Below are positions 27,235 to 33,700 of a stretch of DNA of 64,000 bases, piece after piece (positions within the stretch are counted from its first letter, which is position 1; the number at the start of each line of letters is the position of its first letter). Where the stretch lies: contig NZ_LT707050.1 of NCBI RefSeq assembly GCF_900155735.1, positions 1 through 64,000 of the forward strand, in the 5' to 3' direction. The notes under the pieces were generated by a model. It was not told the DNA's origin, ran no database searches, and saw nothing but the letters and a program-made list of their open reading frames with translations. This DNA comes from Intestinibacillus massiliensis (GTDB lineage Bacteria; Bacillota; Clostridia; Oscillospirales; Butyricicoccaceae). Position numbers and translations under genes: made by a program.

Positions 27235-27311
27235 AATCCTGGTGGGCAAAAGTATACAGCAAAACGTCTCCTGGGGCTGTATTAATCTGATTTATATATG
27301 TTTTCCAAGAA

Positions 27312-27356
27312 GAAGCCTCCCGGGTCATGGCATATTCGGGAGGCTTCCTTTTATCC
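27312..27356 (+). terminator. Terminator of ogt
   Basis: GAAGCCTCCCG pairs with CGGGAGGCTTC, then CTTTT. Confidence 0.7.
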
Positions 27357-27432: not shown

Positions 27433-27690
27433 TTATCCATCACTTACAGCGCGCCTGATCGCAGCCAGCAACCTTTGGCGCGCTTCCGCCGCATCTTGCA
27501 CGGCTTCTTCACCAGCTAGGTAGCGTAACGCATCGTTCCATTCCGCCAAAGACGCGTCTTGGTATGCAATGGCCTCCAAGGCTCGCACCAGGAGCAACGG
27601 TTCCTGCGCCTTCATGTGCCTGAGGTCGGACAGGTAACTGCAGCCCGTCCTATAGGCCAGCACATCGAGCAAAGACAATTTTACCAGCAA
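27433..27690 (-). CDS. 85-residue protein of unknown function, possible phase-variable target
   Basis: A small acidic, mainly helical protein (LSLLDVLAYRTGCSYLSDLR, EWNDALRYLAGEEAVQDAAE). I do not recognise a domain; no membrane helix or signal is seen. TTG start at 27690 with GGGAGGG 8 nt upstream. Its 5' end lies only 27 bp from an inverted repeat that bounds a promoter-bearing segment next to a tyrosine recombinase. In the present orientation that promoter points away, so the gene is probably off and would be switched on by inversion (inferred). Confidence 0.6.
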   Translation of the reverse strand: MLVKLSLLDVLAYRTGCSYLSDLRHMKAQEPLLLVRALEAIAYQDASLAEWNDALRYLAGEEAVQDAAEARQRLLAAIRRAVSDG

Positions 27691-27716
27691 AGCAATATCC
27701 CTCCCATTTTACCGTA

Positions 27717-27737
27717 GTAGTCAAAATCAACATTTTG
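27717..27737 (+). repeat. Left inverted repeat of candidate invertible segment
   Basis: GTAGTCAAAATCAACATTTT plus one G. It matches the inverted copy at 27975-27995 at 19 of 21 positions. Confidence 0.75.
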
Positions 27738-27822
27738 TATACAGCCGCATTGCACAAAATAACTTAACTGCACGGTAAAATGGTTGCCTTACCAGACTTA
27801 TATGTAGGTTTTAAGCATATGC

Positions 27823-27878
27823 GCGCACCAATCCAAGGCCGCTGAAAAACGCTTCCGCCCGGCCTTGGATTGGTGCGC
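27823..27878. repeat. Long perfect hairpin inside the invertible segment
   Basis: GCGCACCAATCCAAGGCCG (27823-27841) and its exact reverse complement (27860-27878) form a 19-bp stem with an 18-nt loop. No T run follows on either strand, so it is not a standard terminator. It may insulate the switch or fold in RNA. Confidence 0.8.
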
Positions 27879-27896
27879 CGTAATTTAGGAAACAGC

Positions 27897-27925
27897 TTGT
27901 TTTCCAGCGCGGCACATGCTATAAT
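27897..27925 (+). promoter_or_regulatory. Promoter inside the invertible segment, now facing right
   Basis: -35 TTGTTT (27897-27902), a 17-bp spacer and extended -10 TGCTATAAT (27917-27925). It lies about 50 bp from the right inverted repeat. Confidence 0.65.
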
Positions 27926-27974
27926 TTTTACAGAATATGTAGACACAAGCGCCATATCTTCGCGGCTTTTGCGT

Positions 27975-27995
27975 CGAAATGTTGATTTTGTCTAC
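27975..27995 (-). repeat. Right inverted repeat of candidate invertible segment
   Basis: Read leftward it is GTAGACAAAATCAACATTTC plus G, matching the left repeat except at two positions. The recombinase stop codon (27994-27992) lies inside it. Confidence 0.75.
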
Positions 27996-28837
27996 GATAT
28001 AAGCCCCAGCTGATCAAGCTGCTGCGCCTGTTCTTTGAATGACGTAATGAGATAAATGCGGGTGGTCTCGATCGAAGAATGCCCCAGGACATCTGCAAGC
28101 CGCGCGATATCCCTGCACGCCCGGTAATAGGATACGGCAAACAAATGGCGCAGGTTGTGCGGAAAAACCTTGGACAGGCCGACGCCCGCATATTTGCACA
28201 GCCGTTTCATTTCCGTCCAAATCTGCCGCCGTGACAAGCCGTTTCCGCTCCTGGTGAGAAAAATCCCGCCGGGGGCGATTTTATTTTGCTTCACATATTT
28301 CAGCAGCTTTCGGCACAGCTTGGCGGGTAGGATAATCGTGCGCACCTTTCCTTTCAGCGAGATTTCCGCACGTCCCCTTTGTGCCGCTTCCACGGTGATA
28401 TATTTTACCTCGCTCACCCGGATGCCGGTCGCGCAAATGGTTTCCATGAGCAGCGCAAGCCTGTCCTGTCCGCGTTTCCGCGCGGTCGCGAGCAACAGGC
28501 TGTATTCCTCACGGGTCAGCTCCTGCTTTGCGTCGCGGAACAAGCGCCGCTGCACGCGCAGATACTTGACGTTGCATTCTTTCCAGCCGGCATATGCAAA
28601 AAAGCAGTGCACCGCAGCAAGCATGGAATTGACCGTTACCGGCGCATATCCCTTGTCGCATAGAGCTGCTTTCCATTCCGTTACAGCGGCTTTGTCAACG
28701 CCCTTCCCGCAAAGCCACGCAGCAAAAGCTTTTACATCCCGCAGGTATTTTTCAATGGTACCCTCGCTTCGCTCCTCCGCCCGCAAGAAAGTTTCAAAGC
28801 CTGCAATTTGACTGCGCGTGATTATCTGGTATTCCAT
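27992..28837 (-). CDS. Tyrosine recombinase, probable invertase of the adjacent switch
   Basis: A 281-residue integrase-family protein. Residues about 1-100 are the SAM-like core-binding domain (TIEKYLRDVKAFAAWLCGKG). The catalytic domain has Arg in ATGIRVSEV, a conserved Lys in SLKGKVRTIIL, HNLRH, the second His in GHSS and the nucleophile Tyr in TTRIYL, so all key residues are present. Start ATG 28837 follows GGAGGG; the frame extends to 28864. Its 3' end overlaps the inverted repeat of the 237-bp segment, so DNA inversion there is its likely job. Small recombinases of this type also serve as element integrases, but no other element genes are nearby. Confidence 0.9.
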   Translation of the reverse strand: MEYQIITRSQIAGFETFLRAEERSEGTIEKYLRDVKAFAAWLCGKGVDKAAVTEWKAALCDKGYAPVTVNSMLAAVHCFFAYAGWKECNVKYLRVQRRLFRDAKQELTREEYSLLLATARKRGQDRLALLMETICATGIRVSEVKYITVEAAQRGRAEISLKGKVRTIILPAKLCRKLLKYVKQNKIAPGGIFLTRSGNGLSRRQIWTEMKRLCKYAGVGLSKVFPHNLRHLFAVSYYRACRDIARLADVLGHSSIETTRIYLITSFKEQAQQLDQLGLIS

Positions 28838-29148
28838 CCAACGCCCTCCATCTCGTAAATTCATAGCATTATTTTACCGTATGCACGGCCTGTCCATACA
28901 TCCGGGCCGTTTCATGGATGCGTAAATTTATATCGCGCAGCCGGAGCCTGTACGCAGGGAGATGTATGTGGTGCAAACAAAGGAACACCCGCCTGCAAGC
29001 GTTGCCTTGCAGGCGGGTGCCTATTTGGGTAGGGGAATATCTGAAAAGGAGGGGGAACAACTGCTCCTTGTATGTAGCCAGTATAACAAAACGGCCATGG
29101 GCTGTTGTAAACAAGCTTTCAACAAATGGTGAATATTGCGTAAAATAC
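28838..29148. other. Intergenic between recombinase and unknown gene
   Basis: Holds the terminator at 28986-29019; otherwise no gene or site that I can support. Confidence 0.45.
28986..29019 (-). terminator. Terminator of the 100-residue gene
   Basis: CACCCGCCTGCAAG pairs with CTTGCAGGCGGGTG (14 bp, 6-nt loop); leftward it is followed by TTCCTTTGTTT. Confidence 0.7.
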
Positions 29149-31487: not shown

Positions 31488-33575
31488 TTATTGCGTATCC
31501 GTACCTTGCTGCACAGGACGGTAGAACAGCAGCTCACGCAGCGGGATCGCCGGGCTATACAGGTACCCCTGGAATACCGTGCAACCTAATTCCAGCAAGG
31601 TACTGCGGAGCGCTTCGTTCTCTACGCACTCTGCAATGACCGTAAACCCAAGGTTGCGCCCCAGCGAGATAATAGACCCCGCAATATCATAGGAGCGCCT
31701 GTTTTCCTGTACCTGGCGCACCAGGCTCCCATCCAGCTTGACGTAATGGAACCGGTTGCTGCGCAGGTAGTTCAGAGAGGTCTGTCCCATGCTGAAATCG
31801 TCGATTGCCAGACGGATACCATCCCCGTTCAGGCGGTCGATATTTGCTGTAATATTGGGCAGGTTGGTCAGCGAAGTTTCTTCCGTCACTTCAAGCACGA
31901 GGTTTTCACACACATCGTACCCTTTGGCAAGCTGGATCAAGCGTTCCGTCCAATCCGGATCGTTGAGCTGTTGGGCGACAATGTTTGCGGCAATATGGAT
32001 TTGGGGATCTATTTGCTGCCGGATGGCCAAAATATCCCGGCAGACCGTGTCCAGAATGCACCATGTCAGCTTTTCATAGCACCCATCTTCCTGTGCCAGG
32101 GAAATAACCAGCGGGGGGTAAAGCGTTTTTTGGTCGTACTGCCAGCGCAGCAGGGCTTCAGCCCCGTTTACCTTGCCGTTTATATCCACCTGGGGCTGGT
32201 AAAACACCGGTATCCGGCCTGCGCTTATATCCGTGCGAAGTTGGCCGACCACACCTTTGGCGATAATGCCGAGGCTATCGTTCCGATCCAGATAACGCGG
32301 ACGCTGTGCATTTTGCTCATGCCGGCGGAAATGCTCCGTCAGTTCCTGGAGTAAAAAATCCTCCCGTCCTTCCTGCAAGCGCTCCGACAAACGGACAAAT
32401 GGGATATAGAGCAGCGTGCCCAAAACCACAGCGGCCAATTGTACGATGACGCCTTTCCAAGAACCGGTCGCCAGATACCCGCTGAAAAATACCGGCGTCG
32501 TCCAGTTTACCGATTGCTGCACAACAGGCATCCAACCTGCCGCAACCGCCCCGTATGCCAAAAGCATGGACATCACCGGCGTCAGGATAAACGGCACGAT
32601 ATAGACCGGGTTCAACACGATCGGGAGGCCAAAGACCAGGATTTCGTTAATATTAAAAAGCGCCAGCGGCGCCGCGGAATAGGCAAGCTGCCGGTTGTTC
32701 TTCTGGCGCGACACCAGCAGCAGCGCCAGGAGCAGGCACAGCGTGGAACCGCTGCCGCCGATTACCGCAAAATTGTCCAAAAAGGACTTCGTAATCACCG
32801 TTGAAGAGGCACCGCCGGCAAAAACCGTCTGCGCTACTGGGTCGAGCGCATTGCCGCCGTGGATACCAAACACCCACAAAAAATCGAGCAGTACTAGGAA
32901 GACAATGCCGTTTTCAGGCTCATGCTGCAGGCCGCCGAATGCACGGAACAGCACGCCGCTGATCAGGTCGTTCAGGTTACCGACATGGAAGGCCTGCTGC
33001 AACAGAAGGTTCGCCACTGCAAACAGCGTTACACAGACCGCCATTGGGAAAATAGCAGTGATAGAGCTGCGGAAATGGATATCGTTCCCGGCGGCATAGG
33101 AACGGTACCGCCGGTAAATAAACAAATCAAGCAGGAAAAACAGGCGCGTTGCCAGGATGGAGCATACGATTGCGGTAAACACGCCGATCGTCCCGAAACA
33201 GGATAGCGTCAACGCCCCTCCCTCTCCGCCGAAGGAAGCGATAAAGCAGGCGCACGCCGCGACCATAGACATCATCCGCAGGGACAAATTCTTCCCCGCA
33301 AAGGATGCGGAATAAAAATAGCTGATTGAGAGGGTCAGGTAAAGGGAAATAAAACCCGTGGTCGAGTCGATCATAAACGTCAGTAGCCGGGACAGCATAC
33401 CTCCGGAAAATGCAGCAAGGAAGCCCTGGTATGCGGGCACGGGGAAATTCAGCAAGAGCAGCGCAAAGGAGCCTGTCAGCACCACCGGGATGACAAGCAG
33501 GAACCCCTTTTTAATCGCGCTAAGCATCGCGTTATTTTCCATTGCGTAAAGCAGTTTGCGGATATGGACAAGCAT
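31488..33575 (-). CDS. PTS EIIC-like membrane domain fused to an EAL phosphodiesterase
   Basis: A 695-residue fusion. Residues about 1-415 are a cellobiose/lactose-type PTS EIIC channel with about ten helices (FGIHGGNALDPVAQ, NINEILVFGLPIVLNPVYIV). Residues about 440-690 are an EAL domain that hydrolyses cyclic-di-GMP: GAEALLRW, the Asn of HIAANIV, EVTEETSL, DDFSMG in place of DDFG, KLDGSLV, AECVEN and FQGYLYSP are all visible. The key acidic and Lys residues are kept, so activity is likely. EIIA, EIIB and HPr partners are absent, so the channel probably acts as a sugar sensor rather than a transporter (inferred). Start 33575 after GGGGGAGG; single gene. Confidence 0.9.
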   Translation of the reverse strand: MLVHIRKLLYAMENNAMLSAIKKGFLLVIPVVLTGSFALLLLNFPVPAYQGFLAAFSGGMLSRLLTFMIDSTTGFISLYLTLSISYFYSASFAGKNLSLRMMSMVAACACFIASFGGEGGALTLSCFGTIGVFTAIVCSILATRLFFLLDLFIYRRYRSYAAGNDIHFRSSITAIFPMAVCVTLFAVANLLLQQAFHVGNLNDLISGVLFRAFGGLQHEPENGIVFLVLLDFLWVFGIHGGNALDPVAQTVFAGGASSTVITKSFLDNFAVIGGSGSTLCLLLALLLVSRQKNNRQLAYSAAPLALFNINEILVFGLPIVLNPVYIVPFILTPVMSMLLAYGAVAAGWMPVVQQSVNWTTPVFFSGYLATGSWKGVIVQLAAVVLGTLLYIPFVRLSERLQEGREDFLLQELTEHFRRHEQNAQRPRYLDRNDSLGIIAKGVVGQLRTDISAGRIPVFYQPQVDINGKVNGAEALLRWQYDQKTLYPPLVISLAQEDGCYEKLTWCILDTVCRDILAIRQQIDPQIHIAANIVAQQLNDPDWTERLIQLAKGYDVCENLVLEVTEETSLTNLPNITANIDRLNGDGIRLAIDDFSMGQTSLNYLRSNRFHYVKLDGSLVRQVQENRRSYDIAGSIISLGRNLGFTVIAECVENEALRSTLLELGCTVFQGYLYSPAIPLRELLFYRPVQQGTDTQ

Positions 33576-33700
33576 GGCCGCACCTCCCCCAGTTACATAC
33601 CATTGTAACACGATATGCTATCAGAAAAAAGGGAATCTACAATATTTCTGCTAGTATATGGCTGGATTAACTTGGTAAACCGTGACGGCGGATCGGCGCC

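Follow-up and report, generated by a model that had tools for sequence, protein, structure and literature searches.

Structure of the locus

The locus lies at positions 27717-27995 and in their flanks in the window, by which we mean the whole stretch of 64,000 nucleotides that was analysed. Two inverted repeats enclose a short segment with a promoter and a stem-loop. A recombinase gene runs into one of the repeats and a small gene lies beside the other. The features are the following.

27307-27352, no strand assigned (plus strand in the scan): terminator-like hairpin between the unit of the 85-residue gene and a convergent methyltransferase (ogt-type) gene
27433-27690, minus strand: 85-residue small helical protein (SP family), the predicted output of the switch (homologues; AlphaFold)
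27717-27737, plus strand: left inverted repeat, holding the recombination site TCAAAATCAACATTTTGT (27721-27738)
27738-27974, no strand: the 237 bp enclosed by the repeats, putatively invertible (the two sites 253 bp apart)
27823-27878, no strand: perfect 19-bp stem-loop (stem 27823-27841/27860-27878) at the position of the family's intrinsic terminator
27897-27925, plus strand: predicted promoter TTGTTT-17-TATAAT with extended TG (sequence; comparable element in 68 called loci)
27975-27995, minus strand: right inverted repeat, holding the recombination site ACAAAATCAACATTTCGA (27974-27991) and the recombinase stop codon (27992-27994)
27992-28837, minus strand: XerC/D-like tyrosine recombinase, likely 281 aa (profile and structure matches, invariant catalytic residues; ORF listed to 28864)
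28868-28896, minus strand: promoter-like site of the recombinase, TGGACA-17-AATAAT (consensus match only)

Inverted repeats bounding a segment, as in a promoter inverton, are thus present at 27717-27995. They match in inverted order at 19 of 21 positions (19-nt core, 95% in an inverted-repeat search), and the sequence-only reading, which had described 21-bp repeats around 237 bp, was correct here. Nowhere else in the window do inverted 19-nt arms with at most one mismatch flank a loop of 100-600 bp, and 30 dinucleotide shuffles yielded no pair of equal quality. With the arms taken as in the family site ACAAAATCAACATTTTGT, the left site TCAAAATCAACATTTTGT deviates from it by one mismatch and the right site ACAAAATCAACATTTCGA by two, and the central spacer CAAC is identical in both. 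The 18-bp site pattern occurs in the 2.84-Mb genome at these two places only, and a reversed control of the pattern does not occur in it at all. Because both repeats start with GTAG outside the core, an inversion would preserve the stop codon of the recombinase. The motif ACGGTAAAAT is found three times in the window (0.2 expected), always at the switch locus, namely beside the left repeat (27706-27715), inside the segment (27772-27781) and at the recombinase promoter (28871-28880). As a family-wide operator it was rejected, 10-mers common to the recombinase upstream region and the switch being found at 21% within loci versus 15% between loci.

The recombinase frame (27992-28864, minus strand) matches Pfam Phage_integrase at 6e-23 and contains in addition an N-terminal SAM-like domain, and the ATG at 28837 is the likelier start. 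It combines the two-domain architecture of tyrosine recombinases with their complete R-K-HxxR-H-Y set, each residue of which is invariant in an alignment of 11 members. A full catalytic set and a stop codon within one repeat had been claimed before, and both are borne out, the TAG at 27992-27994 lying in the right repeat. The nearest solved structures are the XerC-like 4a8e and XerD 1a0p. With the curated cut-offs of NCBIfam none of the XerC, XerD, and XerA equivalogs is reached (best 135.9 bits, compared with 220 for XerA) and these models therefore do not assign the recombinase to the housekeeping Xer enzymes.

The predicted promoter was found as the earlier reading had stated it, near one end of the segment and pointing right. 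Written in full it is TTGTTT-17-TGCTATAAT, with TTGTTT at 27897-27902, a 17-nt spacer, TG, and then TATAAT at 27920-27925. In the present, OFF arrangement it runs into the recombinase at its 3' end. An inversion would bring the -10 element to 27787-27792 on the minus strand, where it would face the 85-residue gene from some 100 bp ahead of the TTG start. Judged from the sequence and the comparative calls, the internal promoter is predicted to face the gene in one orientation only. A generic promoter scan did not list it and taken alone it is within chance; it gains weight because relatives hold a TTGnnn-17-TGnTATAAT element at the equivalent place. The stem-loop of the segment (-42.8 kcal/mol, z -6.2) is not followed by a clear T-run, and the GC stem with subsequent T-run of an intrinsic terminator is seen in many relatives. 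Elsewhere in the window, a 707-residue frame (31488-33611, minus strand) resembles a PTS EIIC membrane domain in its N-terminal half and an EAL domain in its C-terminal half, as judged by eye.

Recombination sites in related loci

Many genomes of the Oscillospiraceae, Lachnospiraceae, and related Clostridia encode relatives of the recombinase that are about 45-66% identical to it, and the genome of the window itself encodes three further members of the family. We surveyed 101 full-length, non-redundant family loci, 74 of which gave a scorable inverted pair, and nearly all of these pairs start no further than about 100 bp from the stop codon of the recombinase. Typically, one site is located just past the stop and the second, inverted site about 250 bp further on. 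If sites are scored by their arms ACAAAAT and ATTTTGT only, 66 loci contain, past the recombinase, two sites separated by more than 150 bp. The 4-bp spacers are reverse-complementary between the two sites in 62 of these 66 loci, compared with 3% of the pairs formed between loci. Such a match inside loci is needed if strand exchange depends on homology. Comparison of the loci thus establishes the structure of the sites as well as the matching of their spacers.

The distance between the sites has a median of 253 bp over the family, and the window with its 253 bp belongs to the commonest cluster. The distances cluster with a period of about 10.4 bp (10.3-10.4). After removal of related loci (47 left) the periodicity has p < 1e-4, and 0.002 if the main cluster of 249-254 bp is also left out, these p-values being indicative because the null is a uniform jitter of the observed distances. 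Since short DNA loops need their sites on matching faces of the helix, the periodicity suggests that the inversion reaction itself is under selection.

Both orientations among the relatives

The orientation of the promoter was called by a sigma-70-type score across the 74 loci. The calls are OFF, with the promoter facing the recombinase, for 48 loci and ON, with the promoter facing away, for 20, and six loci are ambiguous. Independently of the promoter scoring, the inner segments were aligned pairwise in both directions and scores of at least 45 were kept. All 13 segment pairs with opposite promoter calls align best inverted, while 20 of the 21 pairs with the same call align forward and one is a tie. 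For example, two loci of Pseudoflavonifractor capillosus An827 (L101 and L155) have segments that align inverted with 175/230 identities (score 174 versus 31 forward), whereas the 3' ends of their recombinases match forward (262/289). Among the 31 loci in which both elements are clear, 27 have the terminator opposed to the promoter (OFF 19/22, ON 8/9; Fisher 1.7e-4). Because it lies opposite in both states, promoter and terminator move as one cassette. The existence of both cassette orientations and the co-flipping of the terminator are therefore evident from the comparison of genomes.

In the genome of the window (G000) all four tyrosine-type switches are OFF (C24, C23, C34:456k, C34:529k). 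A flip was also sought in the near-identical copy of a sister switch in genome G360, which has the same orientation and is not inverted. Near-identical copies in either orientation were searched for in viral, plasmid, and phage collections, which contained only diverged relatives. The whole locus of switch, small gene, and sugar gene is essentially identical in L191 and L214 (G000:C34:528k and G360:C12), although these genomes belong to two taxonomic families. It adjoins relaxase-like and MobC-like genes and we read it as a recent horizontal transfer of a phase-variable locus. Contigs of several assemblies (G030:C13/C15 and G042) break in or just past recombinase genes, as would be the case for multi-copy or mixed-orientation loci. 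Contig ends soon after the recombinase, present in about a dozen loci, might stem from mixed orientations but were dropped as evidence for orientation because multi-copy repeats explain some of them.

The small protein and other genes beyond the outer site

The 85-residue frame has a TTG start and a GGGAGGG ribosome site and lies just outside the left repeat. Its homologues show that the gene postulated at this place by the sequence-only reading is real. Pfam, NCBIfam, and PHROGs contain no significant family match to the protein. The AlphaFold model (pLDDT 88) has five helices, and because the best hit in a fold comparison has a Z of 3.8, which is not above noise, no function is claimed from its fold. 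An SP family alignment of 20 members was built from the protein. The gene was found in 31 of the 394 Oscillospirales-level genomes sampled. In 19 of 43 small-gene loci a site-specific recombinase, in five of the 19 a serine recombinase, is encoded no more than 1.5 kb away, in every case upstream of the small gene and on its strand, and in two further loci the recombinase is more distant, behind a zinc-ribbon-like gene.

Members of the small family sometimes precede genes of surface proteins. In the genome of the window, a switch and a small gene are followed by a 1313-residue signal-peptide protein at locus C23, and by sugar-nucleotide-dehydrogenase- and glycosyltransferase-like genes at locus C34. 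In the window the small gene stands alone. No gene follows it on the same strand and the terminator-like hairpin closes the unit. Three other loci (L072, L078, and L079) share this layout of switch and small gene without a same-strand surface gene thereafter, and thus the solo arrangement is recurrent.

Two loci combine the small protein with serine recombinases. At L069:2087-3801 (G029) a presumably dead recombinase paralogue and the small protein come after a serine recombinase that has 24-nt inverted repeats of its own (2706-2729/2845-2868), so that cargo common to tyrosine switches is placed under an unrelated switch class. A fourth small-protein copy of the genome of the window follows a serine recombinase at L189:4054-6228 (C34:354k). 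This recombinase occurs twice around a run of N, which is probably a scaffolding artefact at a repeat, and no inverted repeats were found between it and the small gene.

On a speculative reading, the small protein would itself belong to the switch machinery, as a regulator that is carried by switches of both the tyrosine- and the serine-recombinase type and recurs with them, and would here be the sole output. It may, for example, bias inversion or couple the switch to the expression of the following surface gene. If this were true, the locus would be a self-contained or trans-acting bistable module.

In the relatives the neighbours of the outer site include signal-peptide surface proteins and sortase-like, FlgB-like, pilin-like, and zinc-ribbon-like repeat proteins, names that were read from the sequences and not obtained by family search. 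An S-layer protein is found beyond the outer site on a plasmid of Pusillibacter faecalis. In at least nine relatives (L094, L096, L099, L100, L108, L124, L142, L145, L155), and in addition at L069:2923-3801, a paralogue of the recombinase directly follows the switch. Its HxxR histidine is changed to Arg and the nucleophilic Tyr is gone. With these two residues lost the paralogue should be catalytically dead, and it should be under phase control.

Proposed switch and alternative explanations

It is highly likely, in our view, that the locus is an inverton, an invertible promoter switch operated by the tyrosine recombinase that is encoded next to it, and this enzyme can very probably flip the small segment. 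Each 18-bp site would be bound by recombinase subunits at its ACAAAAT/ATTTTGT arms. With the intervening DNA of about 250 bp looped out, the two sites would come together, and strand exchange in the common asymmetric spacer would invert the 237-bp segment. In the present orientation the promoter would fire towards the recombinase, leaving the small gene OFF and probably producing RNA antisense to the recombinase. In the flipped orientation the 85-residue gene would be transcribed from it, on an mRNA whose 5' leader measures about 90 nt. That the window copy is in the OFF form, and that inversion would drive this gene, is largely supported. In many relatives the intrinsic terminator flips together with the promoter, and in the OFF state it should keep transcripts of the recombinase from continuing into the output gene. 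Present flipping of the window copy, activity of its promoter, an antisense effect, and the role of the small protein are inferred. Antisense RNA in the OFF form is plausible because the promoter then points into the recombinase with no strong terminator in between, a layout present in 48 of the 68 called loci, and such RNA may affect the recombinase.

The sequence-only reading had proposed a phase switch that is OFF now and ON after inversion. All its sequence details were correct, and both the type of the switch and the assignment of its states are supported by the comparison of loci, through the matching of the spacers, the joint reversal of promoter and terminator, and the periodicity of the sites. 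However, it had missed the recombinase family, the hairpin, and the recurrence of the small protein, and the antisense feedback that it also proposed is still conjectural.

Several observations stand against a working switch. The copy of the sister switch is unflipped, the hairpin has no T-run, the right site is two positions off the consensus, the four copies in the genome are all OFF, and the promoter alone is within chance. The hairpin, the degenerate right site, and the uniform OFF state, together with the lack of a surface gene after the small gene, would also fit a locked or decaying member of the family, that is a former inverton fixed in the OFF state that has lost the usual following surface gene and rarely or never expresses the small gene. 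However, the recombinase is intact with all catalytic residues kept, the repeats have retained an identical spacer and their distance falls in the commonest cluster of the family, and the small gene, open and conserved, stands in an arrangement that recurs in L072 and L078/L079. We therefore consider decay unlikely.

It is slightly less likely still that the inversion mainly controls the recombinase itself through antisense RNA that is made or withheld, as for fimE in the fim system of E. coli, and that the small gene is incidental. The stop codon inside the repeat and the many loci whose OFF promoter points into the recombinase are in accordance with such self-control, and a phase-variable terminator after fimE indeed feeds back on that recombinase (discussed in PMC2784873). 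However, nearly all loci have a gene just past the outer repeat, often a surface gene, and switches from two unrelated classes of recombinase are followed by members of the small family. A last alternative, in which the repeats mark the ends or the attachment sites of a small mobile element and there is no switch at all, is highly improbable and was rejected. The recombinase does belong to the integrase superfamily, and some family members reside on mobile elements. However, in the genome the repeats are single-copy and do not enclose the recombinase, no further copies of the 279-bp unit with target duplications were seen in the genome, and the order of recombinase, site, promoter, inverted site, and gene is constant over dozens of loci with differing spacers and cargo.

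Comparison with known systems

As an invertible promoter switch, the locus is one more promoter inverton, a known kind of element, with a cargo that is unstudied. Promoter inversion has long been known from the fim switch of E. coli, in which fimS is inverted by FimB and FimE. Like the switch proposed here, fim has its promoter in the invertible segment, a tyrosine recombinase gene adjacent to it, and phase-variable transcription that affects the recombinase. However, recombinase lineage, sites, and cargo are different, and fim employs two recombinases and accessory proteins.

The family described here is large and little described, and its sites, layout, and flipped states can be read by comparing many genomes. 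The resulting site rule, consisting of 7-bp arms, a locus-specific spacer, and a helically phased distance, allows switches, their state, and their target genes to be called from assembled genomes without reads. In the literature searched we did not meet this rule with its helical phasing or the recurrent small protein, which is not proof of novelty. Two uncharacterised families would also be phase-controlled, namely the small helical protein and the recombinase paralogue without catalytic residues that relatives carry. Both are candidate regulators of switching.

According to read-based surveys, inversions within the Firmicutes are concentrated in the Clostridia (PMC5903667). For the hCom2 gut community, the accessible part of the report links inverton group 139 to adjacent tyrosine recombinases of invertase group 35 (PMC11892184). 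As described there, group 139 resembles the present family in consisting of Clostridial invertons (32/33) beside a tyrosine-type recombinase with both orientations seen in reads, a likeness by description; small-protein cargo, a terminator, or phasing are not described for it in that part (PMC11892184). Among the Hin-type switches with serine recombinases, that of L069 in G029 has its own repeats and precedes an SP-family gene as here, but belongs to an unrelated enzyme class with another site structure. The cwpV and flagellar switches of Clostridioides difficile, which are worked by RecV, are also from the Clostridia and likewise have a XerC/D-family tyrosine recombinase and surface genes, and the cwpV repeats are imperfect 21-bp inverted repeats 195 bp apart (PMC2784873, PMC5386303). 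However, RecV acts on more than one switch with dissimilar repeats, and the cwpV promoter is located outside the segment with control by termination (PMC2784873, PMC5386303), whereas at the present locus the recombinase is encoded next to its switch and the promoter lies inside the segment.
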